A stretch of 64,000 nt of DNA, taken from contig CAITNF010000001.1 of assembly GCA_903893745.1 (NCBI GenBank), forward strand, positions 124,001 through 188,000. Direction: 5' to 3'. This document shows, piece by piece, positions 9,427-59,222 of the stretch. Below the pieces are notes generated by a model. The model was not told the origin of the DNA and did no database searches. It saw only the letters and a list, made by a program, of their open reading frames with translations. Position 1 is the first letter of the stretch. Each line of letters opens with the position of its first letter. The position numbers and the translations under genes are program-made. This DNA comes from an uncultured Actinomycetes bacterium (GTDB lineage: Bacteria; Actinomycetota; Acidimicrobiia; Acidimicrobiales; RAAP-2).

Positions 9427-10971
9427 TCAGTTGGCAATGGTTTCATCAAAGGCCGCCGCGAGCACGGCCTGCTCGTTCATGTCCGAACCAGTTAGGTCCG
9501 CCGTAAAGCGTCCATTTCGCATCACGAGCACTCGGTGGGCGAGTCCCAACACTTCGTCGAGTTCTGACGAGATCACAATGATACCCATACCATCATCGGC
9601 CATCTGAGCGAGTAGGTCGTAGATTGCCCGCTTCGAACCAACGTCGACTCCTCGAGTTGGCTCATCGGCAATAAGTACTGACGGCGTTTTCATCATCGAG
9701 CGCGCGAACAGAAGTTTTTGTTGATTACCACCCGAGAGCATCATCGCGGGTAGCGCCATGCTGGCCGCCTTTACGGTGGTCTGTTCCATTACCCGTGCCA
9801 CTTCGCGTCGTTCGCGGATACCGGCAATCCAACTAAATCGGCTCAGGAGGTCGAGGCGAGAGAGCGAAATATTCTCTCGTACCGAACGGCTCATCATGAG
9901 ACCCATTGATTTACGCGACTCGGGAATTAGTACCAGTCCACGGTGAATGGAGCGGTGAGGACTGTGTCCCGCGAGTTCGGTGCCGTCGAGACGCACAGTG
10001 CCCTGGGAGACTTTCGCGTCGCGAAAAATTGCTCGAGCGAGCTCTGAGCGGCCTGCGCCAACCAGCCCCGCGATCCCGAGAATCTCTCCGCGCCGCAGGA
10101 CGAACGAGCAGTCGTCGACACCGGGTGCGCGCAACTGATCAACTTCCAAGACAATTGGTGCGTCGGAGCCAGCCAACTTTTTATCGGGGAAAGCTGATGA
10201 CAAGGTTCGGCCCAGCATGCCTTCAATGAGTGACTCGGTCGTGGCGTCCTTGGCCTCCACGGTGCGCACGAGGTGTCCGTCACGCAAGGTGGTGATGGTG
10301 TCCGCGAGCGAAAGAACTTCAGAAAGAAAGTGTGAGATAAGAATGACCGCGCTACCACGGCGGGCCAGAGAGCGGATAATTTCGTGCAGTGCTGCGGCCT
10401 CGTTGCCCGAAAGGGCCGCCGTTGGTTCATCCATAACCACGATCGAGGCGTTACGCGACAGCGCTCGCAAAATTTCGACCTTCTGCTGATCAGCAGTGGA
10501 CAGCGAACCAGCGAGCACGTCGGGTGAGAGATCAAAGCCAGCTCGGTGAGCAAGCTCTCGAAATCGCCGTCGAACTTCGCGTCGCCGAACGAAACCGGCC
10601 GTCGCGAATTCAGAACCAAGATAGACATTTTCCGCCACAGAGAGCCCGGGTACGATAGCGAGTTCTTGGGCAATCGTGATGATGCCGTGTCCAATTGCTT
10701 CGCGCGGTGATCGCAGTACCAGGGGTGTGCCACCCATTGTTAAGGTGCCCGAATCGGGCTCGAGTACCCCAGAAATGATTTTTCCGAGGGTCGACTTTCC
10801 CGCGCCGTTTTCACCAATAAGCGCATGGACCTTTCCCGGCTCAATCGTGAGCGATACATCGCTCAGCGCCGGGACACCACCAAAACGCTTCGAAACCCCG
10901 GCGACGACCAAGTCGCCGCCGGGGTTATCAAAGCTTGAAACAGATTGTTCGTCAAAAGTCCGAGTTGGCAT
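9427..10971 (-). CDS. Sugar ABC transporter ATP-binding protein with two ABC domains (RbsA-like)
   Basis: GENGAGKSTLGKIISG; second LSGGNQQK signature; start at MPTRTFDEQ proposed. Confidence 0.92.
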   Translation of the reverse strand: MPTRTFDEQSVSSFDNPGGDLVVAGVSKRFGGVPALSDVSLTIEPGKVHALIGENGAGKSTLGKIISGVLEPDSGTLTMGGTPLVLRSPREAIGHGIITIAQELAIVPGLSVAENVYLGSEFATAGFVRRREVRRRFRELAHRAGFDLSPDVLAGSLSTADQQKVEILRALSRNASIVVMDEPTAALSGNEAAALHEIIRSLARRGSAVILISHFLSEVLSLADTITTLRDGHLVRTVEAKDATTESLIEGMLGRTLSSAFPDKKLAGSDAPIVLEVDQLRAPGVDDCSFVLRRGEILGIAGLVGAGRSELARAIFRDAKVSQGTVRLDGTELAGHSPHRSIHRGLVLIPESRKSMGLMMSRSVRENISLSRLDLLSRFSWIAGIRERREVARVMEQTTVKAASMALPAMMLSGGNQQKLLFARSMMKTPSVLIADEPTRGVDVGSKRAIYDLLAQMADDGMGIIVISSELDEVLGLAHRVLVMRNGRFTADLTGSDMNEQAVLAAAFDETIAN

Positions 10972-15547: not shown

Positions 15548-16645
15548 TCAGTGATTATCCGTATCGGCGCCTAACGTACCGGCACGTTTCATTCGTACCA
15601 ACGCGCCTAATGGGCGAGCGAGCAACGTCAGCTCGCGCGACCTGGTGAGACCCTTGGGGAAGATAATGAGAACGAGGAGCATCACGACGGCGAGACCAAC
15701 CGGCTGAATACCAACGGGTCCCTTAATGTTGACCCCACCAACTAGCACACCGTCTTGAATTTTGATCAAAATCTCCGAGAACGTTGAGATAGCAATACTG
15801 CCCACTACCGCGCCCGACAGACTCGTCATACCGCCCACAATCAACATGATGAGAATCATCGTGGTGGCACTGATGTAGAGCGTCTCGGGAACGAGCGCCC
15901 CGAGTAACTGCACGTACAGCGCCCCCGCAATCCCCATGAAGAGTGCTGACAATAAGAAAGCAATACGTCGGTCGGTATTTATCGAGAGCCCGAGCGCGCG
16001 CGCGGCAACTTCGTCCTCACGCGATGCTCGAAGACGCCGCCCCCACCGCGACTGTTGGAAGAACAGGGCCACAGCAATGACGGCTAACGCCACCAGCCAG
16101 AGTTCAGTCACGTTGGGCAGGAGTGGAATCCCGGTAATACCAAGCTCTCCGTTGGTGACGTTGGCCCAGTTCGCTGCGACGACGTACACAATCTGCAAGA
16201 TCGCCAGTGACGTCAACGACGCAGTGAGTCCGGACAACTTAATCAGGGGAATTGAGACCACCAGGGCGACCACTGCGGCCGCGAGACCAGCAATCAAACA
16301 GGCGACGAAGGGGTCGAGGTGGGCTACCGCGAGAAAGTGAGGCAGGTTGGGCTGATTGAGTTTCTTATTAGCCGGCGAGATCATGAGAAGCGAGCCGACG
16401 TACGCGCCAATCGCCATGAAGGCAATATGGCCAAAGGAGAAGATCCCCGAGTTACCAACAAAGATGTAGAGCGCCACCGTCGCAATCAGCATGGTGAGTC
16501 CCTGCGCGATGACTGGCTGAATGGGAACTGCGACCCAGTTCCACATGAGCGCGACCAGCGACACGATAGCGCCGAGGGCCACAAAAGTCGCGAGCGACTC
16601 AATTCGAGGGTTACGCGTCATACGCGCGTCCGTGGTGAGCGCCAC
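15548..16645 (-). CDS. Branched-chain amino acid-type ABC transporter permease LivM
   Basis: GNSGIFSFGHIAFMAIGAYVG motif; Liv operon context. Confidence 0.9.
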   Translation of the reverse strand: MALTTDARMTRNPRIESLATFVALGAIVSLVALMWNWVAVPIQPVIAQGLTMLIATVALYIFVGNSGIFSFGHIAFMAIGAYVGSLLMISPANKKLNQPNLPHFLAVAHLDPFVACLIAGLAAAVVALVVSIPLIKLSGLTASLTSLAILQIVYVVAANWANVTNGELGITGIPLLPNVTELWLVALAVIAVALFFQQSRWGRRLRASREDEVAARALGLSINTDRRIAFLLSALFMGIAGALYVQLLGALVPETLYISATTMILIMLIVGGMTSLSGAVVGSIAISTFSEILIKIQDGVLVGGVNIKGPVGIQPVGLAVVMLLVLIIFPKGLTRSRELTLLARPLGALVRMKRAGTLGADTDNH

Positions 16646-17502
16646 GTCAAGAGACCCTGGGGCCGGTAGACGAGGATGGCAATCACGATGGCGTACGTAA
16701 AGGCCTGCGTGAAGCTTGAGAGGCTTCTCGGAAAGTACGCACCGATGAATACCGTGATTATCCCCAAGAGGTAGCCCCCAAAGACGGCGCCCGAGAGACT
16801 GCCCAGTCCTCCAATGGTCGTGGCGACAAACGCGACGAGCAACAGGTTGACGCCCATCGTCGGGTAGACCTGACCACTTTGGGCCACCGTCAGGTACGCC
16901 GTCACACCCGTGAGCAGACCACTAATCGCAAAGGCAATCGCGATAATCCGATTGGCGCGCACGCCCATTAGGCGTGCGGTCGTGAAGTCTTCGGCGGCGG
17001 CACGCATGTAGACACCGGTGCGGGTCTTGGCGAGGAACCAGGTCAACGTCGTGAGGAGAAACGCCGTCGCGCCAATGGTGGCCACGTCCAGCCAGGGCAC
17101 CAAGAGACCCGCGACGTGAAAGGGGTGGCCCAGGGCGGGCGCGAGACTGACGCCACGCGGCGTCGACGTGAGGAAGAGCAGCACCAAACTCTGTAGTAAG
17201 TAGCTCACCGCAAATGAAGTGACGAGCAGAGTGGAGTCACTCGCGCCGCGGACTGGGCGAAAGGCAATCCGCTCAATTACTAAGGCAAACACCACGGGCA
17301 CAACGAGAGTTATCACGAGAGTCAAAATCCACGGAGCGTGCGTCGCGAAGGCCGACCCGTAGGCGCCAACCATTACCAGGTCACCCTGGGCAAAATTCAC
17401 CAGGCGCATGATGCCAAAGACCAGGGCGATTGATAGCCCCATCACCGCGTAAAGACTCCCGAGTGAGATTGAATCAATTAAGTGTTGGAAGAACGCGTGC
17501 AT
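16618..17502 (-). CDS. Branched-chain amino acid-type ABC transporter permease LivH
   Basis: GSLYAVMGLSIALVFGIMRLVNFAQGDLVMVGAY. Confidence 0.92.
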   Translation of the reverse strand: MHAFFQHLIDSISLGSLYAVMGLSIALVFGIMRLVNFAQGDLVMVGAYGSAFATHAPWILTLVITLVVPVVFALVIERIAFRPVRGASDSTLLVTSFAVSYLLQSLVLLFLTSTPRGVSLAPALGHPFHVAGLLVPWLDVATIGATAFLLTTLTWFLAKTRTGVYMRAAAEDFTTARLMGVRANRIIAIAFAISGLLTGVTAYLTVAQSGQVYPTMGVNLLLVAFVATTIGGLGSLSGAVFGGYLLGIITVFIGAYFPRSLSSFTQAFTYAIVIAILVYRPQGLLTWRSPRTRV

Positions 17503-18206
17503 CAGACCTTCTTGCCCAGGTAGGTCTCGAGCATGTCCTCGCGCGATAACAGCTCGGCGCTGGTTCCCTGCGCACGAATATGTCCAGCTCCCAGCACGTA
17601 GGTTCGATCGGCGGTGGCGACGGTGCGTGACGCATTTTGTTCCACGAGGAGAATCGTTACTCCATCACGTTGCAACGAAACCAACACTTCAAAGACTGAA
17701 TCAACCATGAGAGGCGCCAGCCCGAGTGACGGCTCATCAAGAATAAGAAGTCTCGGACGCGCCAGTAAAGCTCGGGCAATGGCCAGCTGCTGCTGTTCGC
17801 CGCCCGAGAGTCCGGCCGCACTGTCGCGGTAGTACCGACGAAGTATCGGGAATCGATCGAGCACCGCGTCGTGAGTGCTTGCGTCAAAGCCCCGACCGCT
17901 GGCGTAACCGAGAGAGAGATTCTCCTCCACACTTAACGTTTGAAAAATATGCCGGCCTTCGGGTACGAAGCCAACACCGAGTCGCACAATGTCTTCGGTG
18001 GCCTTGCCGAGCAGACTGTTTCCATCAAAAACTATCGAACCTGACGTGGCCTTTACGAGCCCCGCAATGGTCTTGACCAGCGTTGACTTGCCCGCTCCAT
18101 TGGGGCCAATGAGACCAACCAACTGGCCCTCACCAACCTCCAACGTGACCTCGCTAAGCGCGGGGACCTTGCGGTAGGCCACTGACAGTCCTTCTACTCG
18201 CAGCAC
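17502..18206 (-). CDS. Branched-chain amino acid-type ABC transporter ATP-binding protein LivF
   Basis: GPNGAGKSTLVKTIAGL; LSGGEQQQLAIARAL. Confidence 0.92.
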   Translation of the reverse strand: MLRVEGLSVAYRKVPALSEVTLEVGEGQLVGLIGPNGAGKSTLVKTIAGLVKATSGSIVFDGNSLLGKATEDIVRLGVGFVPEGRHIFQTLSVEENLSLGYASGRGFDASTHDAVLDRFPILRRYYRDSAAGLSGGEQQQLAIARALLARPRLLILDEPSLGLAPLMVDSVFEVLVSLQRDGVTILLVEQNASRTVATADRTYVLGAGHIRAQGTSAELLSREDMLETYLGKKV

Positions 18207-18208
18207 GA

Positions 18209-18949
18209 CTACGCCACCCCGAGGTAGGCCTCGATGACCCGAGGGTCACGCTGCACTTCACTCGCCGTTCCGCGCGCAATAATCGCGCCCGAGTCCAGCA
18301 CATCAATTCGTTCACAGAGACTCATGATGAGACGCATATCGTGTTCGATAACACAAATTCCACAGCCGTACGCATCGCGAACCCTGGCGAGTATCCGACC
18401 CAGTTCATCACTCTCCGCTTCGTTCAAACCGGCCGCCGGTTCGTCGAGTAGTAAAAAACGAGGCAGCGCCGCCAGGGCCCGACCAATCCCGACGAGACGC
18501 TCAAGTCCGTGCGACAGCGACGACGCGTCACTTTCGAGTGAGTCGTGCAGGTCCAAGACTTGAGCCACTTCCTTGGCGCGAGCCGTCGCCGTCGCCACAC
18601 TGGTGCGTGCGCGCCCGAGTCCGCTCGCAATGAGATTCTCAAAGACCGAAAGCCCGGAAAACAGTCGGACCGATTGAAACGTTCGTACCAAACCAACCTG
18701 TGCTCGACGATGACTCAGTTTTGCGGTGATGTCGACACCGTCGAGCCACACCAAACCTTCAGTGGGCTTTTGGAACCCTGACAGTACATTGACCAAAGTC
18801 GACTTACCGGCTCCGTTGGGACCAATGAGTCCCATAATCTCGCCTTCGCGCAATTCAAAGTCGACGTGGTCAAGCGCACGAACCCCACCAAAGACCATCG
18901 TGATGCCCGCGCCGGCGAGTCCCGTATTCGTCATGGAGCCACTCATCAT
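18209..18949 (-). CDS. Branched-chain amino acid-type ABC transporter ATP-binding protein LivG
   Basis: GPNGAGKSTLVNVLSGF; LLDEPAAGLNEAE. Confidence 0.92.
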   Translation of the reverse strand: MMSGSMTNTGLAGAGITMVFGGVRALDHVDFELREGEIMGLIGPNGAGKSTLVNVLSGFQKPTEGLVWLDGVDITAKLSHRRAQVGLVRTFQSVRLFSGLSVFENLIASGLGRARTSVATATARAKEVAQVLDLHDSLESDASSLSHGLERLVGIGRALAALPRFLLLDEPAAGLNEAESDELGRILARVRDAYGCGICVIEHDMRLIMSLCERIDVLDSGAIIARGTASEVQRDPRVIEAYLGVA

Positions 18950-18972
18950 TTCATTCTCGACAACTTAAAAGG

Positions 18973-19002
18973 CGATGGGCCCGTGTTACCACGGGCCCAT
19001 CG
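18973..19002 (-). terminator. Hairpin between LivK-like and LivG-like genes (terminator or partial attenuator)
   Basis: Perfect 13-bp inverted repeat CGATGGGCCCGTG-TTAC-CACGGGCCCATCG; on the minus strand followed by CCTTTTAAG. Confidence 0.7.
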
Positions 19003-19021
19003 ACTTCCAACTTAAATGGGT

Positions 19022-20221
19022 CTAGCCGCAGGATCCGGCGGGAATGTGCTTCGGCTTAATGGTGGCCACGTACCGTTCGGTGCCATTCGCGAAGTCCGCG
19101 ATGATCATCGGGTTCCCCACACGCGAGTGGCAGTTCTTGGTCCACGTGGTTGGCCCAATGGCCAAAGCGTGATTCTTGAACTTCTCAAAGTAGGGACGAA
19201 TCTTGTTCGCACTGATACTGCCCGTCGCCGTCACGGCCTCGGCAATAGCCTGCAGAGCGCTGTACGCCTCGAGGTATCCGAGCGAGAGCTGCACGGGGCG
19301 CTTGGCCTGCTTGAGCGCTGCCGCAATACTGCCGGCACTCTGGCCTCGAGTCGCGACACCGTAACTCACGGCGTAGCTGTTCGAAAGGTCCGAAACCCCA
19401 GACTCCCAGAAGTTACCGTCAAAGGCGTCGGTCAGCATGACGGGCGTCTTGATGCCGTCGTCACGAATTCCCTTCAGCACCGAAGCACCCGATGGTGGGT
19501 AGCCACAGAGCATGATGACGTTGTAGGACGACGAAGCGGCCTGCGCAGCACTTACGGCCGCGGTCTGCGCGGCGGTTGTGCCGTCGTAGGTACCGTTACC
19601 AGCGATGGTCCCGCCGAGCGTTGTAAAGGCCGAAGTGAAGCCCTTGCAGTTCGCCGACATTGCCGCCAGTGTGGTGTCCTCGATGACGTACGCCTTCGTG
19701 GCCTTCAAGGTGTCGTAGGCGTACTGGGCCAAGACTGAACCCGCGTTGCCACCCGACGTGTCGAAGTTGAAGACATTGTTACCGATGCTCTTACCCATTC
19801 GCGGGTCGTCGGCAGCGGAGATCGTGATCAGGTTGTGTTGCTGAGCAACGCCCGCCGCCACGCCACCAAAGTTGTAGTCAACGGTGGGCAAGATGAACTT
19901 GGCGCCCTTGGCGATGACCTGCTGTGCGGCCGGTCCACCCTGGGGGATGCTCGAGGCGGTGTCCGCCGTGACAATCTTCACCTTGTGCCCGAGAATGCCG
20001 CCCTTAGCGTTCAGCAAGGCAGCTTCCGTCTGGGCACCGAGCAGCACCTGGCTGTCGTAGAAGTTAATGAAGCTGGTGAGGCCAATGGGTAGACCAATAA
20101 CAATTGGACCCTTGGGGATCGACGTCGACGCTGCCCCAGAACTCTGGCTCACCCCAACCGCGATCAATGACGTCACCATCAGTACTGATGATGCCGCAAT
20201 GGATATTTTCTTCAGTCTCAC
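19022..20221 (-). CDS. Branched-chain amino acid-type ABC transporter substrate-binding protein (LivK-like)
   Basis: Signal peptide VRLKKISIAASSVLMV; GTG start at 20221 preceded by AAGGAG; long ORF 19022-20593 overlaps the upstream gene and is over-extended. Confidence 0.88.
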   Translation of the reverse strand: MRLKKISIAASSVLMVTSLIAVGVSQSSGAASTSIPKGPIVIGLPIGLTSFINFYDSQVLLGAQTEAALLNAKGGILGHKVKIVTADTASSIPQGGPAAQQVIAKGAKFILPTVDYNFGGVAAGVAQQHNLITISAADDPRMGKSIGNNVFNFDTSGGNAGSVLAQYAYDTLKATKAYVIEDTTLAAMSANCKGFTSAFTTLGGTIAGNGTYDGTTAAQTAAVSAAQAASSSYNVIMLCGYPPSGASVLKGIRDDGIKTPVMLTDAFDGNFWESGVSDLSNSYAVSYGVATRGQSAGSIAAALKQAKRPVQLSLGYLEAYSALQAIAEAVTATGSISANKIRPYFEKFKNHALAIGPTTWTKNCHSRVGNPMIIADFANGTERYVATIKPKHIPAGSCG

Positions 20222-20291
20222 AGAACCTTCTCCTTGATTGATAAACGATGTACGACAACGCAGCCCCAATGACCTGACGCCACTACAGCAA

Positions 20292-22046
20292 CTAATTAAT
20301 GACTCTAACCGAAATTGTTGAGGAATTTTCACCAGTCTGCAGCAAACATGCTGGCGGCAAATGAAAGTCTCGCAGTGGCTCAAGCGAGGCGGGGATGCCG
20401 AGTGATCCCGGTTGCGAATCACCGAGCGGCGCATTTCTCGAGTGAGCCAGCGCACGTGCGAGCTCGAGCTGCTGACGTAACGACAAGCCAACTGGTGCTT
20501 CAAACTCGCGGTTCTGGCTAACGCGCCAGCTTTCAAGGTCACCCAGAAAAAGAGTGGCCGGTGGAGCAGGAGTCTTATTCCACCAAACCCCACTTAAGGG
20601 ATTGAAATAGTAGTCCTCCAAAAATCGCTCGCCGAAGTCGGCCACGAAGTTGACGGCATCAATCAGATAGTCACGAACCTCATCGTCAACGAAGTAGTTG
20701 AAATTGATTCGGACCCATCCGGGCTTGAGACCTTCCCAACCTTGGCAGATCACCTCTTCGTACGAGTGTGCGTGCTCGCGGTCAATGCCCAGCAATCGCA
20801 TTCCGTAGGGGCCGGCACACGAACAACCACCGCGCGCCTGAATGCCCAACAGATCGTTCAAGAGTGCGACCACAAAGTTGTGGTGGAGGTACCGCTCGCC
20901 ACAACGGATACGCAGCGAGATTATGGAGAGTCGTTTCGCGTCAATACTGCCCAGCACCTCAATACGAGGGTTGGCCGCAAAGCGCTCAAGCGCCGTACTG
21001 AGGAGCGCATGTTCACGCCGTTCAATCTCCTGTGGACCCACCGCCCGCTTCAGTTGAAAGGCAAGGCCCGCACGGATGGACCCAATGATGTCGGGTGTAC
21101 CAGCTTCTTCACGTCGTACGGGGTCGTCGGAATAGATTCGACCCTCTTCGCTCACGAAGCTCACAGTCCCACCACCGGGCGCAGTGGGTACGGCGTCGCT
21201 GAACAGCTCGCGTCGCAGAGCCAACACGCCAGGCGAGCCTGGACCACCCACGAACTTATGTGGCGAAAGAAAGAGACCATCCTTGTAGGCGAGGGGGTCA
21301 GACGAAACCATGTCGATCTTTACGTAGGGTCCCGCGGCCGCGTAATCCCAAAAGGCCAAAGCGCCGTGCTCATGCAGCAGTCGCGAGACCGCATCCGTAT
21401 CAGTGATGATCCCGGTGACGTTGCTGGCGGCGGAGAACGAACCAATCTTTAGCGGTCGATCGTTATAGAGCACTAACGCGTCGGCGAGAGCCGCGAGATC
21501 GATGTGACCGTCACGATCCTCAGGAATACGTATTAAGTCAGCCACCGACTCACGCCACGGCAGGTCGTTGGAGTGATGCTCGAAGGGACCAATGAAAACG
21601 ACCGGCCGCTCGGCGGCGGGGATGTGCTCGCTGAGTTGGTACCGGGCGTTCAACTTCGTTGGTAAGGCAATGCCCAGAATTGCGACGAGACGATTGACCG
21701 CACCGGTGGCCCCCGAACCCACGAAGATCACGACCGTACTGTCGTCACCACCAAGTCCTTCGCACACGGCCTGGCGCGCCTGTTCACGAAAGGCCGTCGT
21801 CTGCAGCCCCGTGCCACTTGATTCACTATGCGTATTGGCGTACCAGGGGAGCACCATCTGGCGAATGGCCTCTTCAATAAACGTCAGCGAACGTCCCGAG
21901 GCGGTGTAGTCGGCGTAGACCACTCGCCGTGGACCATAGGGCCCTTCGAGTACCAAATCGTCGCCAATCACTCCTTCGCGAATCATCGCGATGATGGTGT
22001 CGGCGTCGCGCACGTCGGCACCTGGTGGCGTTACTACGTTCTTCAT
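20292..22046 (-). CDS. Class-V aminotransferase (cysteine desulfurase-like fold), about 584 aa
   Basis: YADYTASGRSL; SPHKFVGGPGSPGVLAL PLP-lysine region; RGGCSCAGPYG. Confidence 0.85.
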   Translation of the reverse strand: MKNVVTPPGADVRDADTIIAMIREGVIGDDLVLEGPYGPRRVVYADYTASGRSLTFIEEAIRQMVLPWYANTHSESSGTGLQTTAFREQARQAVCEGLGGDDSTVVIFVGSGATGAVNRLVAILGIALPTKLNARYQLSEHIPAAERPVVFIGPFEHHSNDLPWRESVADLIRIPEDRDGHIDLAALADALVLYNDRPLKIGSFSAASNVTGIITDTDAVSRLLHEHGALAFWDYAAAGPYVKIDMVSSDPLAYKDGLFLSPHKFVGGPGSPGVLALRRELFSDAVPTAPGGGTVSFVSEEGRIYSDDPVRREEAGTPDIIGSIRAGLAFQLKRAVGPQEIERREHALLSTALERFAANPRIEVLGSIDAKRLSIISLRIRCGERYLHHNFVVALLNDLLGIQARGGCSCAGPYGMRLLGIDREHAHSYEEVICQGWEGLKPGWVRINFNYFVDDEVRDYLIDAVNFVADFGERFLEDYYFNPLSGVWWNKTPAPPATLFLGDLESWRVSQNREFEAPVGLSLRQQLELARALAHSRNAPLGDSQPGSLGIPASLEPLRDFHLPPACLLQTGENSSTISVRVIN

Positions 22047-22071
22047 ACCGAACCAATCTGGTGTGAGATGG

Positions 22072-22890
22072 TCACGACGCTCTCATGAAATCGCGCAGTG
22101 ACTGGTTGTACTTCTCGGGCCCTTCCCAGAACATCGCGTGACCGCCACCCTCATCGGCTTCGAAGATGACAAACTGCGAACCGGGTAGGGCTTCGTGCAT
22201 CTTGCGCGCGATGTCCAGCGGAACTTTAGAGACTCGTCCCCCAATCACCAGCGAGGGCACCTTGACGAGCGAGAACGCGTCCCACCAGTCGCCAAAGGCC
22301 GCCCAACGAAACAGCTTGGCCATGAGCGGTCGAGGCAGCTTCAGTCCCTCGGTGTAAAAGGCGTCCTTCGCCTCTTGCGGTGCGTCATCGGTTAAGAACT
22401 GATCGCTGAATCCCTTAGAGAAGGCAATTGCGTCCGGACCTTCAAAGGTCGCAATCGCCGTGAGGGCCTGCTCAGCGCTGAAGATGCCGTCGCGCAGGTG
22501 ACACGGGGAGTCGTCCGAAAACACAATGGCGCGCAGCCGCTCTCCCCCATAGATCTCTAAGTAGGTAAGGATAATCTTGCAGCCACCCGAGTGACCAAGA
22601 ATGGTCACGTCGCGTAGATCTAACGCTCGCAGAAACGCGTCGAGGTCCTTGGCCAGCGTGTGGTAGTTGTAGCCAGTGGCGGGCTTGTCTGATTCGCCGT
22701 GACCGCGTGGATCTAAGGCCATGACGTGAAACTCGTCACCCAGACCTTCGAGCTGATACTTGTAGAGCGACGCGGCATGACCCAAGCCCGGCAGCATCAC
22801 TAGCGGTCGGCCCTCGCCGGACTCCCAGTAGCGCAAGGTGACGCCGGGTGCAACCTCAACACCTTTTAATGTGGCCTGCAGCTCCATCAC
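22072..22890 (-). CDS. Alpha/beta-fold hydrolase
   Basis: MALDPRGHGESDKP; VTILGHSGGCKI nucleophile elbow. Confidence 0.88.
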   Translation of the reverse strand: MMELQATLKGVEVAPGVTLRYWESGEGRPLVMLPGLGHAASLYKYQLEGLGDEFHVMALDPRGHGESDKPATGYNYHTLAKDLDAFLRALDLRDVTILGHSGGCKIILTYLEIYGGERLRAIVFSDDSPCHLRDGIFSAEQALTAIATFEGPDAIAFSKGFSDQFLTDDAPQEAKDAFYTEGLKLPRPLMAKLFRWAAFGDWWDAFSLVKVPSLVIGGRVSKVPLDIARKMHEALPGSQFVIFEADEGGGHAMFWEGPEKYNQSLRDFMRAS

Positions 22891-22902
22891 TGAACCCTTT
22901 CT

Positions 22903-24645
22903 TTACCGAGCACTAGCGAGAGAGCGACGTTCGGCGCGCAGCGCCTTGGTCGCCTCTTCATCAACCAAATCATTACTAATAACTACGGCGTAGTCGCGTT
23001 TGGCGCCTTCGACCGTTACCTTCTCGTCTCGGAAGTCCTCCAAGACCAGTGACACGTCACGATCAAGGGGATCGCCGTAGCCACCACCCGACGCCGTTAC
23101 GTGACGGTGTCGATCACCCGCGACCACCATAATGTCGGGCTTGGTTGGGAGCAACGTCTCGTTATCACTTCCCCGATTCAAAATATTCGCCGATCCCGAA
23201 CCCTTGTGACCACCGCGCAACCCGTAGGGCGGAAAGTCGCGACGGTCCGAGCGTCCCCGCAAGGTCGCCTCGCTGTAGAGCAGGGTCATGTCGCGAAAGG
23301 TCGCAAGGCCCCCACGGAACTCTCCGGGGCCACCGGTATCAGCGAGGTAGCCGTAGCCATCGATTCGAACGAGTCCGGCCCGTTCCATCTCTTCGATTGG
23401 TGTATTGGCCAAGTTGGCCCCGAGTGAACTGGCACCATCAAGTCCATCTTTGCTCGGTCGAGCTCCCCACGCACCACAGAGAATGTCCCAGATCACGACC
23501 GAACGACCATCTTCATCGGTGATGCCAACGGCCACCGTGTTCGGACTACCGTCACCACCGGCGGGCACCGTGTCGGGAAAGGCCGACGCGAGCGCTCCGA
23601 GCACCAGGTCAATAGTGCGCAGCCCGGTTAGTCCCCGCGCACCTCGGGCAGCTGGTCGGATCGGATTAAGAATGGTGCCCTTAGGAATCGTGAACGTAAT
23701 CGGACGATAGAAACCGGCGTTCGCGGGAATCTCTTGGCCCACGGCCCCCTGGAGCGCGGCGTAGGCGGCCGACTTGGTGAATGACGCCGTGGCGTTGAGC
23801 GCCGACGCGACTTGGGGCGAGCTCCCGGTGAAGTCAAAGTGTGCGCTCGTCGCGTCGATCGTCACGGTGACCTTTATCGGAATTGGACCCGAGCCCAAGC
23901 CATCGTTATCGAGCGAATCCTCAAAGATGTACACGCCGGCTGGCACGCGCGCGAGTACCGCGAGCAGCAGTGTCTCGGAGTAGTCCAAGAGGTTTGAGCA
24001 CAGGTCGGCAAAACCCTCATTGCCGTAGCGTGCCGCCAGATCACGGATGCCGTTCGCTCCGGCGTGACAGGCCGAGAGCTGCGACTCGAGGTCTCCCTGA
24101 AAAAGTTCCGGCTCACGGCAGTTGCGCATAATGACTCTCAGTAACGTGTCGTTCAACACGCCCCCATCGACGAGTCGTGAGGGTGGAATCTGAATACCTT
24201 CCGCGAAAATACTGGTCGACTGGACCGCCATTGATCCAGCGGCCCAACCACCGACGTCGGCATGGTTCGCAATGGCCACGGCAAAACCTAAGAGGTGGCT
24301 GCCAACGTGGATTGGTTCAATCACGAACAGGTCGGGCAAGTGCATGCCACCTTGGTCTGGATCGTTCAGAAGGTAGACGTCGCCGGGTTGAATCGAATCA
24401 CCAAAGTTCTCAAAGATTGCGGCCATTGCTTCAGGCGTTGAACCAAGGTGCACGGGAATCGTGTTGGCTTGGGCAATCAACTGTCCCTTCGCGTCACAGA
24501 GCGCCGCGGAGAAGTCCATGCTCTCAGCCACAATCTGTGAGTGCGCGGTGCGCAAAATGGTGATGGCCATTTGGTCAGCGAGCCCAGAAATCGCGTTACG
24601 AAAAACTTCAAACGTCGCGGGGTCTCGAACAGTACGAGTGCTCAC
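22903..24645 (-). CDS. Hydantoinase B/oxoprolinase family protein
   Basis: HyuB-type motifs (DVYLLNDPDQGGMHLPDLFVIEPI; GGHKGS; VTASGGGYGDPLDRD). Confidence 0.92.
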   Translation of the reverse strand: MSTRTVRDPATFEVFRNAISGLADQMAITILRTAHSQIVAESMDFSAALCDAKGQLIAQANTIPVHLGSTPEAMAAIFENFGDSIQPGDVYLLNDPDQGGMHLPDLFVIEPIHVGSHLLGFAVAIANHADVGGWAAGSMAVQSTSIFAEGIQIPPSRLVDGGVLNDTLLRVIMRNCREPELFQGDLESQLSACHAGANGIRDLAARYGNEGFADLCSNLLDYSETLLLAVLARVPAGVYIFEDSLDNDGLGSGPIPIKVTVTIDATSAHFDFTGSSPQVASALNATASFTKSAAYAALQGAVGQEIPANAGFYRPITFTIPKGTILNPIRPAARGARGLTGLRTIDLVLGALASAFPDTVPAGGDGSPNTVAVGITDEDGRSVVIWDILCGAWGARPSKDGLDGASSLGANLANTPIEEMERAGLVRIDGYGYLADTGGPGEFRGGLATFRDMTLLYSEATLRGRSDRRDFPPYGLRGGHKGSGSANILNRGSDNETLLPTKPDIMVVAGDRHRHVTASGGGYGDPLDRDVSLVLEDFRDEKVTVEGAKRDYAVVISNDLVDEEATKALRAERRSLASAR

Positions 24646-26750
24646 GAGCGACTCCCTTCACTCCAGGCAATGACGATGTTCGCGAACTCGTCAAGCCGAG
24701 CATTCGCCCCGGGCGGCACCAACGTGGTTGCGTCCATATCCTCAATCACCAACGGACCAGCGACTGGCTTGGTTCCTAGTGCCGCACGTGACAGCACGGG
24801 TGTCTCCAGCACTTCATCGAATCGACAGCTTCGAGACGAACGTACGACTTCCCCAGCGGCTCGGCGGGCGAGAACTGACTCGACGGTGACTCGGTTAACA
24901 ATGCGGCCGCGCAGACGCAGATTCACGAACTCCACTAATTCATCGGGACCCGATCGTCCGTAGGTCTTTTGATGCTCCGCGTGAAATTCCTGGCGCGCGA
25001 ACGCCAGCGAACCTTCGTTGAGTTGGCCATCGGGCAACGTGACGCGCAATTCAAAGCGCTGACCGCGATAGCGCGCGTCGAGTAATCGGTCAAACACGAT
25101 TGCCTCGTCACCACCACCTTGAGCGCGAAGATCATCAGTCACACTCTGGGCCAACTCGTCGTACGCTGCGCCCAATGCCGCTGGATCGACGTGGGCGTCG
25201 CGGAAGGGGGCAACTTTCTGTCGTTCCACGTCAGCCACCAAGAGACCGAGACTGCTGAACAGTCCGGGGAAGGGAGGCACAATGACCGTCGTTATACCGA
25301 GTTCCTTGGCGAGATACGCACCGTAGAGCGGACCGGCACCACCGAAGGCCACCATGGTTGACTCACGCGGGTCGCGTCCACGTTCGCTGGTGACCGACTT
25401 CACAGCCTTGGTCATGTTGCTCACCGCTACTTCGTACGCACCACGAGCAATGGTGCCGGCGTCGACGCCAAACTCTTGCGCCAACGTCGTAAGGACCTGC
25501 TCCGCGAGTGACGGCTCAACCTTGACGTTCCCGCCCGCCAGTGAGATGGGATTCAGATAACCAAGTACCACGTTGGCGTCGGTCAGCGTGGGTCGATCGC
25601 CACCTTGGGCGTAGCAAGCGGGTCCGGGTCGCGCGCTGGCGCTCTCGGGCCCAACGTGCAGCGAGCCAGCTAGGTCGCGATTAATTATGCTGCCGCCGCC
25701 GGAACCAACTTCGGCAATGTCAATTGACGGGACTCGCACGAGGTAGCCGTCACCCTTGCTCAACCCTCTCGAGGCGCTCATGCCACCGCCGACTTCGTAG
25801 TCAATCGCGACGAAGGGCACTCCGTTCTCGATGAGCGAGGCCTTGGCTGTGGTACCGCCCATATCAAAGGCCACCACGTTGGTCAACCCCATTGCGTTCG
25901 CCAGTTTTTGGACGGCGGTCACTCCGGCCGCCGGTCCCGATTCAATGATCTGCACGGGAGCCGTGGCAACCGCGGCGGCGGGTAACAGACCGCCACTCGA
26001 CTGCATGATGAGGAATGGTGACGATATGCCGTACTCGCTGAGTCGCTTGCCGAGGTCAAAGACGTAGCGTTCCACAATTGGCCCCACGTAAGCGTTGACG
26101 ACAGCAGTACTTGTTCGCTCGTACTCCTGCAGGGCGGGTGAGATATCAACCGACGCCGTCACAAACACGTCGGGCAGTAGCACTCGAAGTTGCTCGGCCA
26201 CGCGACGCTCTTCTTCGGGGCTCGCGTAGGAATTCAACAGACAGATAGCGACGGCACCGACTCCTTCGGCGCGCATCGCGTCAGCGATCTGAACCACTTC
26301 ATCATGATGAACCGGCTTTTCGACCGAACCATCGGCCAGGAGTCGATGGTCCAATTCGTAGCGATGACGACGGCGCACCAGGGGTGCGGGCTTCGACCAG
26401 CCCAGATCGTAGAGCGTCGGTCGGCGAAGGCGACCTAGTTCGAGTACGTCTCGAAAACCTTTGGTAGTCACGAGCGCGGTAGTCGCACCCGTCATCTCCA
26501 AAATGGCATTCGTCGCCACGGTCGTTCCGTGCAACACTCGCGAAATCGCCGGCGCGTCGATCCGTGCGTCGCTCACCACTCGATCAACTGCGGTCAATAC
26601 TGCCGTGGCAAAGTCTGGCGGGCTCGAGAGCACCTTGTCAGTGACCACTTCGCCCGACGGGCCAATCAAGATGATGTCGGTAAATGTTCCGCCGATGTCA
26701 ACGCCAACTAACCATTCACCATAGCTTTCTGATTTGGATTCCTTCGTCAC
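24642..26750 (-). CDS. Hydantoinase/oxoprolinase family protein (HyuA)
   Basis: VGVDIGGTFTDIILIGPSG; VVAFDMGGTTAKASLIENG; GTG start at 26750; 4-nt overlap with hyuB-like gene. Confidence 0.92.
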   Translation of the reverse strand: MTKESKSESYGEWLVGVDIGGTFTDIILIGPSGEVVTDKVLSSPPDFATAVLTAVDRVVSDARIDAPAISRVLHGTTVATNAILEMTGATTALVTTKGFRDVLELGRLRRPTLYDLGWSKPAPLVRRRHRYELDHRLLADGSVEKPVHHDEVVQIADAMRAEGVGAVAICLLNSYASPEEERRVAEQLRVLLPDVFVTASVDISPALQEYERTSTAVVNAYVGPIVERYVFDLGKRLSEYGISSPFLIMQSSGGLLPAAAVATAPVQIIESGPAAGVTAVQKLANAMGLTNVVAFDMGGTTAKASLIENGVPFVAIDYEVGGGMSASRGLSKGDGYLVRVPSIDIAEVGSGGGSIINRDLAGSLHVGPESASARPGPACYAQGGDRPTLTDANVVLGYLNPISLAGGNVKVEPSLAEQVLTTLAQEFGVDAGTIARGAYEVAVSNMTKAVKSVTSERGRDPRESTMVAFGGAGPLYGAYLAKELGITTVIVPPFPGLFSSLGLLVADVERQKVAPFRDAHVDPAALGAAYDELAQSVTDDLRAQGGGDEAIVFDRLLDARYRGQRFELRVTLPDGQLNEGSLAFARQEFHAEHQKTYGRSGPDELVEFVNLRLRGRIVNRVTVESVLARRAAGEVVRSSRSCRFDEVLETPVLSRAALGTKPVAGPLVIEDMDATTLVPPGANARLDEFANIVIAWSEGSRS

Positions 26751-26751
26751 G

Positions 26752-27933
26752 TCATCCACCCTTCGTCGAATCGCCAACCAATAATCGGAGCCCCTCAATA
26801 ACCCGAGCAACGTCTTCGGTTAAGCCGCCAAACATGATTCGTGCGTGCGTATTGGGACCCATAAAACCGTCGCCCGCCACCGCCGCAATCCCGCGCGCCA
26901 GCAGCCCCGCTTCAAGCTCTCGGCCACGAAGCGCGATCGACGAGAAGTTCACTAGCGCGAAGGGCCCACCTCGTGGACGAACCGCACTCAGGCCGATCTT
27001 TGCGAGGCCATCCATGAGTTGATCACGATTGGGCTGATACGTCGCCAAAACTTTCTCAAGCCATTCTTGAGGGCCATCAATAACTGCGCGAGCTGCGGCT
27101 TGGGGCACGGGACCCACGTCGAGGGCGTCCCACTCAAATTGAAGATGGATTCGTGACAAGAGTGGTTCAGGTGCGTGCACGTAGCCAACTCGCCAATTAG
27201 AGAATCCGTAGTTCTTGCTAAGGCTGGTCACGGTGACTAGACCCTCGTAGTCGTTTCGAAATTTCATCTGCGGCGTGTAGACATCGCCATCAAAGACGAA
27301 CCGTGCGTAGGCCTCGTCGGCGACGACCAGCAGCTCTTTGGACGCGGCCCAGTGCACTACGGCTTGCACCAAGTCGCGCGAAGGCACGCTGGCGGTGGGG
27401 TTATTGGGGTTGCACAACATCAAGGCACGAGTGCGCGGAGTGACTTTGGCCGCGATTCGCTCGAGGTCCCATTGCCACTCGTCGGCTTCCAGAAGGTCCA
27501 CGTAGACCGGAATCGCTCCAGTGGACCGAATTGATTCGTCAAAGAAGAACGTGGGTGCTGGAACAATTACTTCATCACCTGGTTCAAAAAGTGCCCGAAA
27601 TGTCACACTCAAACCGTGCATTGCGCCGTGGGTAATAAGGAGTTCTCGCTCCGGATCAGCCACTACGTCATAGGTCTGCGCCAAATACTGGCTAATGGTG
27701 TCGCGCAGGGCGCGAGCACCGCGAGTATCTCGATCGTGCACCCGACCGGCAGCCTCAATGATGGCTGTTTGCACGTGTTCGGCCATAACGAGCGTGGGGG
27801 AGCCAAATGTCGGGATAATCGCCGCACCGTTCAAGGCAGCATTGCGAGCATCCTCCGCAATCTTCATGGCCGGCAGCCTCGTAATCATCGCTCTACTCTC
27901 CATCGCGGACGTCGGGTCAATGTGGTCAGCCAC
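26752..27933 (-). CDS. Class I/II pyridoxal-phosphate aminotransferase
   Basis: LCNPNNPTASVPSRDLV; VVADEAYARFVFDG; SLSKNYGFSNWRVGYV. Confidence 0.9.
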   Translation of the reverse strand: MADHIDPTSAMESRAMITRLPAMKIAEDARNAALNGAAIIPTFGSPTLVMAEHVQTAIIEAAGRVHDRDTRGARALRDTISQYLAQTYDVVADPERELLITHGAMHGLSVTFRALFEPGDEVIVPAPTFFFDESIRSTGAIPVYVDLLEADEWQWDLERIAAKVTPRTRALMLCNPNNPTASVPSRDLVQAVVHWAASKELLVVADEAYARFVFDGDVYTPQMKFRNDYEGLVTVTSLSKNYGFSNWRVGYVHAPEPLLSRIHLQFEWDALDVGPVPQAAARAVIDGPQEWLEKVLATYQPNRDQLMDGLAKIGLSAVRPRGGPFALVNFSSIALRGRELEAGLLARGIAAVAGDGFMGPNTHARIMFGGLTEDVARVIEGLRLLVGDSTKGG

Positions 27934-28028
27934 TTACGACGGCAAACTAACCCGAGTTACTAATTCACGGTAGCAGAGGACTACCCAACTTCACTGGTGA
28001 ACGTGCGGCGTCACGACGTTTCGCACGC

Positions 28029-28187
28029 AAAAAAAGTGAGTGGGAACTTCTGCGCACTCCGCAAACGCTCTAGACGGCTCTGCGGGTGCGCTGAAGTCAG
28101 TTCGCGAACCACCAGTTGAGTTCAACTACTCGCAAGTTGTGATGAAAACATCAACACGGCCACTCACTTTCACAGGCCAACCACAAT
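28029..28187 (-). ncRNA. Candidate structured non-coding RNA or leader (no family recognised)
   Basis: Closing stem AAAGTGAGTGG (28033-28043) / CCACTCACTTT (28160-28170); internal stems 28052-28063/28081-28091, 28100-28109, 28140-28144/28149-28153 and AGTTG/CAACT options; minus-strand U7 at 28035-28029; no supported ORF. Confidence 0.5.
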
Positions 28188-28193
28188 GCCTAC

Positions 28194-28222
28194 TTATGAA
28201 AGTTAATTAGTAGTTTTGTCGA
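28194..28222 (-). promoter_or_regulatory. Candidate sigma70-like promoter of the structured RNA
   Basis: Minus strand TCGACA (28217-28222) - 17 nt - TCATAA (28194-28199). Confidence 0.4.
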
Positions 28223-28257
28223 CTTTTCTAGGTCGCGACCACTGCGACACGGCGTCC

Positions 28258-31200
28258 TTACGTCGCGGACGACTCCGTGGTGGCGTACTCAACGAAGGCA
28301 CTCAGCGTCGAAATCAAGCGCATCTCTTCAACACTGCGTGCTCGAGCGTTTAAGAGTTCTTCGGTACACACCAAATAGGCGAGACAACGGGCCCGGCTTA
28401 TTGCCACATTGAGTCGATTACGACTAAAGAGAAACTCTGGGCCCCGTGGCATATCCTCACCCGTCGATGTGGTCATGGTGAAAAACACCACTGGTGCCTC
28501 GCGACCCTGAAACTTATCTACTGTCCCGACCTGAACCCCCGCGAGTCGACTATCGCCTTCAAAGTGTTGTTGTAACAGACGCACCTGATCGTTGTAGGGG
28601 GCTACGACCATAAAGTCGCGCGGTTCGAGACGAAACTGATCGCCGTGTTGGTTGACCCAAGGTGAACCCAGCATCGTGCCAATCTGTTCGGCCACCATTG
28701 TTACTTCTTCGGGCGATTCAGTTGAGCGGGCCTCGTGGTGCGCCTCGAGCCAGCGAAGTCCGGTACCAAACTCCGTTGTCTGTTGCGCGCAACTCTCGTG
28801 ACTCGTGAGTCGACCCTCGTAGATCTGGTTCGAGATGAAACGACAGATATCGGGATGCATTCGACGAGTCATCGCAATGAAAACGCCGTCGGTGTCGGGC
28901 ACGGTGGAATGGCCACCGAGCACGTGTTCCAAGACGCTCGCCCCCGAACCACCCGGGTGTTCGGCCTGCGCCACCTGGGCCAATTGCAACGGATCGCCGA
29001 GTAACACCAGATTGTGTGCGGCGTTCGCCGAGGCCAGCGCGTCAGCGAGTGCCAACTGGCCCGCTTCGTCAATCAACAGCACGTCGACGGGATAGGGGCG
29101 CATACTCGGTCGAGCGAAGAGCCACGTGGTGCCCGCGACCAAGTTGTACGCCAGACTTTCGCAGTCTTCATTCGAGCCATATTTCACACCCTCAAGTGCC
29201 CCAACTTTTGGTTTGGTACTGCGACGAACCGCCTTTAGCAAACTCAGTTCACCCTTTTCTTTGAACACTTCGTAGGTCGCGAGGAGCAGGTTATCGATTG
29301 CGTTGTGGCTCATGGCGGTGATACCAACGCGCTGCCCACTGCGAATAAGGGTGTAGATAATGTGAGCGCCCGAATAAGTCTTGCCCGTTCCCGGAGGTCC
29401 TTGAATTGCAACGTAGGAATTGTCAAGCCGCGTCACCCACTCCAGCATCTCGTCCAGCGAGTCGCGAAAGCGTCCCGACGCGGGACCGCGACCCTCAACA
29501 AACCGCGGGCGATTGGCCGCGAGTAACTCCATCGAGACCGGACTAACTGGATCGTCCGGTGAGGGATTTAGTAGCTGCTGCGCCAAGTGAAAGAGGACGC
29601 CCGGCTTTTCGCGCGGGGTTACGTAGTCATCAATCGTCATAGTCGCCGGGAGCCCCCCGGCATCTTCTTGGAACTGATTCCAGTTCATCGTGACCCGACG
29701 TTGCTCGCGATCCAACTCTGAGACGTAGCCGTAACCGTGTTCTACTCCCGGGCCGGTGTAGAGCACGCTGATTTGACGACGCCACTTCTGATCAAGCAAC
29801 TGTTCGGGGTACGTGAACACTGCCACCTTCTTCGTGGTGTCACCGCGTCCCGCCACTGTTTCAAAGCCAAGGAACTGCAGGTTGGCGAGATAGTCACGAT
29901 TGCCGTAGAGCGTGGTGAAATCTGATTGTGCCTCGGCGAATTTTGGTGAGGTATTGGCGGAGCGCTCTCGGCGCCAGTAGTTCAAGAGATCGGCCAAAAG
30001 AAACTCCGGTGACGTGTCGCCGCGCAGTTTGAGCGCCGCGACCAATTCATCGGTATCGATGCCGTACTCATCAAGGGCAAAGACCGGGTCACGCCACGGT
30101 GTGGACTCGGGTCGCTGCGCAAGCAGCCAATCTCGTAACGCCTTCGTCGCTTCCACGTCATCGGCGTTGTACTTGGCGATGTCCACCAGCAGTTGCGGAT
30201 TGCCCGAACCCATCCACGACTCGTACTCAACTACCGCGCCCGCACCCTGCTCAATACCGGCGCGGCGATGAAAGTCAGTCAGTTTCTCCATATGTTTCAA
30301 GCCGTAGGACTCAGTGCCCACCATGAGGGCGTTACGCACTACCGGAAAGAGGTCGACGAAGAGGCCACTTTGTACCAAGTTGGAAAAGAGTTGCTCGGAC
30401 TCGGTTCCTCGAACGAGACGCTCCATCACGGTGCGTTCGGTGTGGTTGTAGTGATACACGTGCATGCCGGGATAACGCTGTCGTCGCTCATCGAAGAGCA
30501 GAACGAGTTGACGGATCATTTCGTGTTGATGTTCGAGGTCGTGCGCCCAAATCTCTTGATAGCCCCACGCACCTTCTTCTACTTCTAGGTGTAGTCCAGC
30601 TAAGAACATCAGTTCACATTCGGGACTCCAAAAGGGGTGTCCCTCAAAATCAAAAAATACGTCACCGACTGCGGGCTCGGGCAACTCCTCGAAACCGTGA
30701 CCGTAGACGGGGTCATCGCCGGCTTCAACTAACGAGAACTGAGGCTTCTCGTCGGGAGTAGCGCGTGAGGCAACCTGCAACGCGGCCTGACGTTGAAGTC
30801 GTTGCCGATTTTCTTGGTGCAAGTCGTGAACGTCATCCTCGTGGTGAGCCAGTTGCACTACCGTGCGCACGCCAGCCGCTTCGAGGGCGAGACGATCCGG
30901 TTGACGAATATTCGCGACGTACACGAGCGAATCATTCGCGCGCCACTCACGTTCGCAGGTCATCTGGAAATCACAGGTCTCACAGTGCGAACACGGCTGC
31001 GGCTGCGTGTCAATTATCTCAGCTGACTGTTCGAGCAGTACTTCTAGTTGGCGCCGCAAACGACGCCAGTAGGGACGAAACTGTTCCACGAGGAGTGTCT
31101 CGAGGTCACCCGAGCCAAGCCACAGATGCATTGACCTAGATGGGGCGCCGGTCAGGGTCTCGATGGCGTCAGCGTAAAAACAGAGTTGCAGCACGTGTCC

Positions 31201-31629
31201 CGGCTTGCCTTCACTTCGTGTCAACTTGGCGTCAATTGGTTCGTACGTCGCGTAGCCATCGTGAGGTTCATCTACTTTGATGAGAAAATCGGCAATACCA
31301 CGAATACCTTCGTGCACGAATGGCATCTGGTAGATCACGTCGTAGCCCTGCTCGAGAGGATTACCAATTCGCGTTACCCACGCGGCGAAGTTCTCATCAG
31401 GATTTCGTCCTGGTACGTGATAGACGAAGAGGCCCCGATCTTCAAAGTCTTGGAGGCAACGACGTTCGTGGCTGAGGCCCTTATCGGCCAACAGCTCGGC
31501 CAGCGGGTTCATCGGAGTAATGGTGAAATCGCGCAGTCCGGCATCGACCTGATTTCGAAGATTGAGCGAGTGGGCACATTCGAGCCACGCGCTGATCTTG
31601 GATGGGGTTAGTAGTCGTTCGGTAGCCAA
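28258..31629 (-). CDS. TM0106-type RecB-like nuclease fused to an SF1 (DNA2/NAM7-like) helicase
   Basis: C-S-H-C-x-x-C-x5-C cluster (CSHCETCDFQMTC); VFFDFEGHPFW RNase-H-like motif; GPPGTGKTYSGAHII Walker A; LLIDEAGQL; GTVDKFQGREAPVVFFTM. Confidence 0.85.
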   Translation of the reverse strand: MATERLLTPSKISAWLECAHSLNLRNQVDAGLRDFTITPMNPLAELLADKGLSHERRCLQDFEDRGLFVYHVPGRNPDENFAAWVTRIGNPLEQGYDVIYQMPFVHEGIRGIADFLIKVDEPHDGYATYEPIDAKLTRSEGKPGHVLQLCFYADAIETLTGAPSRSMHLWLGSGDLETLLVEQFRPYWRRLRRQLEVLLEQSAEIIDTQPQPCSHCETCDFQMTCEREWRANDSLVYVANIRQPDRLALEAAGVRTVVQLAHHEDDVHDLHQENRQRLQRQAALQVASRATPDEKPQFSLVEAGDDPVYGHGFEELPEPAVGDVFFDFEGHPFWSPECELMFLAGLHLEVEEGAWGYQEIWAHDLEHQHEMIRQLVLLFDERRQRYPGMHVYHYNHTERTVMERLVRGTESEQLFSNLVQSGLFVDLFPVVRNALMVGTESYGLKHMEKLTDFHRRAGIEQGAGAVVEYESWMGSGNPQLLVDIAKYNADDVEATKALRDWLLAQRPESTPWRDPVFALDEYGIDTDELVAALKLRGDTSPEFLLADLLNYWRRERSANTSPKFAEAQSDFTTLYGNRDYLANLQFLGFETVAGRGDTTKKVAVFTYPEQLLDQKWRRQISVLYTGPGVEHGYGYVSELDREQRRVTMNWNQFQEDAGGLPATMTIDDYVTPREKPGVLFHLAQQLLNPSPDDPVSPVSMELLAANRPRFVEGRGPASGRFRDSLDEMLEWVTRLDNSYVAIQGPPGTGKTYSGAHIIYTLIRSGQRVGITAMSHNAIDNLLLATYEVFKEKGELSLLKAVRRSTKPKVGALEGVKYGSNEDCESLAYNLVAGTTWLFARPSMRPYPVDVLLIDEAGQLALADALASANAAHNLVLLGDPLQLAQVAQAEHPGGSGASVLEHVLGGHSTVPDTDGVFIAMTRRMHPDICRFISNQIYEGRLTSHESCAQQTTEFGTGLRWLEAHHEARSTESPEEVTMVAEQIGTMLGSPWVNQHGDQFRLEPRDFMVVAPYNDQVRLLQQHFEGDSRLAGVQVGTVDKFQGREAPVVFFTMTTSTGEDMPRGPEFLFSRNRLNVAISRARCLAYLVCTEELLNARARSVEEMRLISTLSAFVEYATTESSAT

Positions 31630-58374: not shown

Positions 58375-58458
58375 AGCCTCTTCCCGGTTTCGAGTGTCCA
58401 CTGGTTGCGTGAGCTCCCTGCCATTCAACACGCTTTTTGTGGCTTCGTCAAGTCTCGA

Positions 58459-58474
58459 TGTTTCACGTGAAACA
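58459..58474. promoter_or_regulatory. parS site 1
   Basis: TGTTTCACGTGAAACA, perfect parS palindrome. Confidence 0.98.
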
Positions 58475-58535
58475 TTCTTGGATACCGGTAACTACTTCCA
58501 CGTTTAGAACTAGGTGTTATCTACTGGACTTCCAG

Positions 58536-58551
58536 TGTTTCACGTGAAACA
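58536..58551. promoter_or_regulatory. parS site 2
   Basis: TGTTTCACGTGAAACA, perfect parS palindrome. Confidence 0.98.
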
Positions 58552-58582
58552 TTCCTGAGCGACCTATAACGACCTAGTCGGA

Positions 58583-58598
58583 TGTTTCACGTGAAACA
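58583..58598. promoter_or_regulatory. parS site 3 (abuts rsmG stop codon)
   Basis: TGTTTCACGTGAAACA, perfect parS palindrome. Confidence 0.98.
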
Positions 58599-59222
58599 TT
58601 AAAACAGTGGGCGCTTCGCTGGCGTTCCAATTGAACGGGGGTAGTCCGCTGGTGTAGGCGTCTCTTTGCGAATTATCTGAAAATTAGCGCCGTGGCGGAC
58701 CCTTGCTTGTAGGGACAGTCCCATAAGGGCAAGTCCGGGGACGCTCCATCGGCTTGCGTCACCCTCAGTGGGAGGCTCCGAAACTACGAGGATTCCGCCG
58801 ATTTTCAGAAGCCGGGCCGCGCACTCGGCGGTGGCTGATGGTGGACCAAAGGAGCGGGCTGTGACCAGGTCAAAGGTTCCATCAAACTCTGGCCACCGGG
58901 CGACCTCTTCAGCCCGTCCGAGCACCACCTCGCCGCCCGTCGGTGCTCCAGGCCAAGCCAGTACTTCACGGAGGTACTCGATTCGCTTGGCCATGGAATC
59001 GTTGAGGACCCCACGTTTTTCCCACCGAGCTAACAGCACCAAGCCGGGGAGTCCGCCCCCGCTCCCCAAATCGAGGAAGCTATCTGGAGGAGCATCGGTA
59101 TCTTGTTCCCAGGCCAAAGCAAATCCCTCGGCGTGCAGAATCTGTGGCTCGATCGCCCCAGGACCTAAAAAACCCCGCGCCCTTGATTCCTCAAGGGCGC
59201 GGGGTAACCATGAAGAAGTCAT
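58599..59222 (-). CDS. rsmG: 16S rRNA (guanine527-N7)-methyltransferase RsmG (GidB)
   Basis: SFLDLGSGGGLPGLVL; position between parA and jag. Confidence 0.93.
   Translation of the reverse strand: MTSSWLPRALEESRARGFLGPGAIEPQILHAEGFALAWEQDTDAPPDSFLDLGSGGGLPGLVLLARWEKRGVLNDSMAKRIEYLREVLAWPGAPTGGEVVLGRAEEVARWPEFDGTFDLVTARSFGPPSATAECAARLLKIGGILVVSEPPTEGDASRWSVPGLALMGLSLQARVRHGANFQIIRKETPTPADYPRSIGTPAKRPLF

Follow-up and report, generated by a model that had tools for sequence, protein, structure and literature searches.

Results

An element on the minus strand of the window (the whole 64-kb stretch of DNA that was analysed) is, in a reading that we hold with moderate confidence, a compact three-hairpin intrinsic terminator that would end leftward transcription and leave either a lineage-specific small RNA or a stable 3′ untranslated region (UTR). 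The element (28170-28033) has a perfect 11-bp stem (AAAGTGAGTGG/CCACTCACTTT) around 116 nt with three hairpins, which gives a length of 138 nt including the arms of the closing stem. An earlier note on this DNA had put about 158 nt inside the stem; the enclosure was confirmed, and the length has to be corrected to the values given here. The window comes from a metagenome-assembled genome (MAG) of the Acidimicrobiaceae (1.66 Mb, 18 contigs, 96% complete), an assignment made because the named relatives of the nuclease encoded next to the element are mostly Acidimicrobiaceae MAGs.

Genetic setting and predicted fold

The element lies within a 324-bp gap separating a nuclease gene from an aminotransferase gene, both of which have the minus strand, the strand of the element, as their coding strand. 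The nuclease stop codon is followed 88 nt later by the start of the element, whose U-run is the sole run of at least 6 U between two codirectional genes. The aminotransferase ORF was called at 26752-27933, and the ATG at 27888, behind GGAGAG, is the likely start. In agreement with the earlier note, which had seen no supported ORF, none longer than 56 aa was found inside the element. The features of the region, all on the minus strand, are as follows.

28258..31629, minus strand: upstream gene, helicase-nuclease with domains AAA_11/12, RNase_H_2 and PD-(D/E)XK, kept across the genus
28195..28223, minus strand: promoter-like TCGACA-N17-TCATAA, seen in the sequence and uncalled by the consensus scan
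28160..28170, minus strand: closing stem, 5′ arm AAAGTGAGTGG, from sequence and fold (pair probability ~1 for most pairs)
28136..28157, minus strand: hairpin 1, TGATG-TTTT-CATCA plus two weak outer pairs, from the predicted fold
28102..28135, minus strand: hairpin 2, containing AGTTG-AACT-CAACT, from the predicted fold
28045..28098, minus strand: hairpin 3, long stem GACTTC-A-GCGCAC-CCGCA / TGCGG-A-GTGCGC-A-GAAGTT, from the predicted fold
28033..28043, minus strand: closing stem, 3′ arm CCACTCACTTT, from sequence and the stem/U-run search
28029..28035, minus strand: U7 tract, an intrinsic-terminator-like 3′ end, from the stem/U-run search
27967..27976, minus strand: extended −10-like CTGCTACCGT downstream of the terminator, candidate promoter of the aminotransferase/HyuAB operon
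26752..27888, minus strand: downstream gene, class I/II aminotransferase, followed by HyuA and HyuB

All of the stems coexist in the minimum-energy fold of the minus strand, which reaches −63.6 kcal/mol over 144 nt with 27 G-C, 21 A-U and 5 G-U pairs. Pair probabilities were ~0.98-1.0 over 9 of the 11 closing-stem pairs and 0.83-1.0 in hairpin 2, and hairpin 1 was the weakest of the three, at no more than ~0.77. The sequence elements named in the earlier note (the promoter-like sequence, the 11-bp stem, the hairpins, the palindrome GTTCGCGAAC and the bulged long stem) are all present. The 3′ arm does run into seven U, as described there, with the correction that three of the seven U are already paired, in the final A-U pairs of the closing stem, and that four U lie past the 11-bp arm.

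The element shares with intrinsic (Rho-independent) terminators a GC-containing stem that leads into a U-tract after a codirectional gene, here an 11-bp stem and U7. Such terminators have a short loop, whereas the element encloses the 116-nt three-hairpin structure in place of a local hairpin with a loop of 3-8 nt, and a consensus terminator scan, which covered loops of 3-8 nt only, did not call it. Such a long-range stem, with 116 nt inside it, is not usual in intrinsic terminators; two other strong hairpins of the window are local 15-bp stems. One alternative is that the nuclease mRNA simply ends at the element, a terminator whose inner hairpins are by-products and that has no separate RNA function. 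The weak promoter upstream, the presence of the sole U-run after the nuclease and the nil conservation (see below) all fit this explanation; however, a terminator does not require an interior of 116 nt that is almost completely paired, and local perfect hairpins exist elsewhere in the window. We regard the plain mRNA end as a possibility to be taken seriously, if a doubtful one.

Stability compared with shuffled sequences

The predicted structure is unlikely to be a product of chance. The z-score for the wider 181 nt was −3.98, with 1 of 200 shuffles equally stable, and when the whole window was scanned in 6-nt steps on both strands, the element ranked as the third most over-stable locus among the 21,286 windows of the 64 kb. 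Among 60 shuffled 64-kb windows, none contained a ≥10-bp stem within 200 nt that continued into ≥6 T. Lastly, the minus strand folded better than the plus strand (−65.3 versus −55.9 kcal/mol), as is expected if the RNA is read from the minus strand. The z of about −4, the third rank, the 0 of 60 shuffles and the fold advantage of the minus strand were counted for the terminator, together with the sole U-run and the rRNA-P1-like extended −10 before the next gene.

The two loci ranked above the element hold simple 15-bp hairpins, both perfect and on the minus strand, one at 59172-59205 with a T6 tail and the other at ~10825-10860. The former lies inside the called start of ORF 58599-59222, so that the true start of this ORF is probably further downstream than called. 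Three copies of the parS-like palindrome TGTTTCACGTGAAACA were seen at 58451-58600, beside ParA/ParB-like genes (named by eye).

Promoter-like sequences on either side of the element

The earlier note had assigned the RNA its own promoter, TCGACA-N17-TCATAA. The −35 part of this proposal stands, with matches at 5 of 6 positions; the −10 part does not, with matches at 2 of 6, and a consensus promoter scan of the region called no promoter, so that the site is weak. TAAGTAGGCAT, which overlaps it, is similar to the P2 region upstream of the rRNA in congeners (TAAGGTAGGCAT), and TAAG.?TAGGCAT has its one occurrence in the window at this site; as a hint of a promoter, the P2 likeness is suggestive but post hoc. 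On the other side, TGCTACCGT (at 27976) is an extended −10 between the terminator and the aminotransferase start. CTGCTACCGT is of the same type as the P1 promoter-like CCTGCTACACT of the genome's own rRNA, and there are only two TGCTANNNT sites in 64 kb. The words upstream of the rRNA are putative promoters, judged by their conservation and position.

In many congeners, the nuclease gene is directly 5′ of the rRNA operon, and a pair of conserved promoter-like elements, CTGCTANNNTG and TAAGGTAGGCATCCC, occurs there; congener contigs frequently end at this nuclease/rRNA operon junction (loci L003-L031). The P2-like TAAGTAGGCAT and a P1-like CTGCTAC are both present in the region of the element, as they might be in a remnant of an rRNA promoter region; their order is reversed, and a simple remnant was therefore rejected.

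The extended −10 also bears on the suggestion of the earlier note that the element is a terminator-controlled leader (riboswitch-like or an attenuator), in which a ligand or protein would block the closing stem and allow read-through into aminotransferase-HyuAB. The element is indeed upstream of the catabolic operon and codirectional with it, and AGTTG of hairpin 2 could pair instead with an upstream CAACT copy, which gives it alternative pairings with two CAACT copies. These alternatives are improbable, however, with hairpin 2 pairing at 0.83-1.0. Moreover, the promoter-like extended −10 stands separately between the terminator and the aminotransferase, and two aminotransferase relatives (L149, and L144 on a Rhodococcus plasmid, with HyuAB nearby) have neither an upstream U-run nor such an element; together, the intervening extended −10 and these two relatives favor separate units. 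No conserved aptamer was seen among the relatives, which are few and distant and make a weak test, and literature searches found no hydantoinase riboswitch. We consider a leader unlikely.

Searches for relatives and known families

Rfam searches at gathering and lax thresholds gave no match save a chance one to Xoo5 at E 4.7. The earlier note's description of a minus-strand RNA that is structured, has a 3′ end of the intrinsic type and fits no known family is supported by the fold, the stem/U-run search and Rfam. In BLASTN searches of 60 relatives, phages and plasmids, the element matched itself alone. A covariance model found no relative among 98 congeners, ~395 class genomes and 397 phylum genomes (these sets overlap; ~800 genomes in all); built from one sequence and its fold, it is a weak probe, and strict filters applied above 40 genomes. 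Besides the element, it picked up one 36-nt match at E 0.097 and, from the opposite strand, the element's own hairpin. When the same model was run over the nuclease loci that had been fetched and over the Rhodococcus cluster, all matches were at chance level. The closing-stem pattern was not found in viral contigs. A weaker long-range stem with U6 after the nuclease in G017 (L006) was rejected, its alignment being no better than shuffles.

Since no homolog was found, covariation lends no support, and this was counted against the terminator and small RNA explanation. The congeners are distant, however (the nuclease is at best 70% identical), so that a fast-evolving small RNA could have been missed. 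Conservation in relatives, whose lack would by the earlier note speak against the element, was not found in the genomes searched; the nearest of these are distant, so that this counts only weakly against an RNA confined to the lineage.

The same searches bear on a divergent 6S RNA, which the earlier note had left open, and on Ms1 RNA. A size near 160 nt is shared with the shortest 6S RNAs, and RF00013 has no match elsewhere in the genome (whole genome, E≤10). On the other hand, the element forms a three-hairpin junction, not one rod with a central bubble, it has no relative in the 98 congeners although such RNAs are widely kept, and Rfam was negative. Ms1 is found in the context of a HAD hydrolase gene and an oxidoreductase or glycosidase gene (PMC9130861), whereas the neighbors here are the nuclease and the aminotransferase. 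The 6S-like proposal is therefore unsupported, and we give a 6S or Ms1 identity almost no credence.

Gene order at the junction

Most congeners fetched with enough sequence have the rRNA operon after the nuclease, and others have an ABC transporter or EAL-type gene there (gene names by eye); none carries the element after the nuclease. The rRNA operon of the window's genome is on a different contig, where an argH-like gene precedes it. No relative of the aminotransferase was found at E≤1e-70 in the ~395 class genomes, while the Rhodococcus plasmid (L144) has one, 49% identical, beside HyuAB; the catabolic cluster behind the nuclease is for this reason foreign to the genus. The cluster (15548-27933 in the window) comprises HyuA, HyuB, an alpha/beta hydrolase, two aminotransferases and a branched-chain-type ABC permease, and was probably acquired horizontally, its first aminotransferase having no close relative in the class. 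The element is located at this lineage-specific junction of nuclease and catabolic cluster, and the rearranged gene order after the nuclease explains the missing same-place counterpart in congeners.

A rearranged locus might also be left by a mobile or reverse-transcribed element, either a retron-like noncoding RNA with a1/a2 ends or a MITE whose terminal inverted repeats measure 11 bp. In the msr-msd RNA of retrons, inverted ends enclose one long hairpin together with short ones, an arrangement that the element resembles. However, no reverse transcriptase (PF00078) was found anywhere in the genome, which argues that the element is not a working retron, and its single copy argues that it is not an active MITE. 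No target duplication was seen at the locus, and the element was absent from the phages, plasmids and viral contigs searched. A mobile remnant is highly improbable.

Discussion

In the terminator reading that we favor, RNA polymerase would read leftward, arriving from the nuclease gene or starting at a weak promoter near 28200, and would make hairpins 1-3. Judging from the anatomy, the closing stem AAAGUGAGUGG/CCACUCACUUU would form during synthesis of the U-tract and bring about transcript release. The product would be a compact RNA of ~140-165 nt whose ends are paired and which would be a small RNA on its own or else serve the nuclease mRNA as its protected 3′ UTR; the RNA may start near the promoter-like sequence at 28195..28223, or it may be the mere 3′ end of the nuclease mRNA. 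The downstream catabolic operon probably starts separately, from TGCTACCGT at 27976. We infer transcription, termination and a separate downstream promoter; that the RNA has a trans-acting regulatory role is a guess.

With bacterial small RNAs that have paired 5′ and 3′ ends, the element shares a length of ~140-165 nt, an intergenic position, a structured interior and a terminator-like 3′ end; it differs from them in having no relatives and a weak promoter. It is very unlikely to be the first-seen member of a new RNA class, a small RNA or a metabolite sensor serving the HyuAB pathway, in which the terminator stem closes an aptamer-like three-hairpin domain, so that folding and termination are one event. 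At present the element is not evidence of a new RNA class, and it is probably a local small RNA or an elaborate gene-end signal, not a widespread new class.

The element is currently a candidate from a single genome, with no backing from comparison with others. Should it be transcribed, an uncultured Acidimicrobiaceae lineage would have a candidate small RNA in it; it would also exemplify intrinsic terminators whose interior holds several hairpins, a form that loop-limited terminator finders miss.
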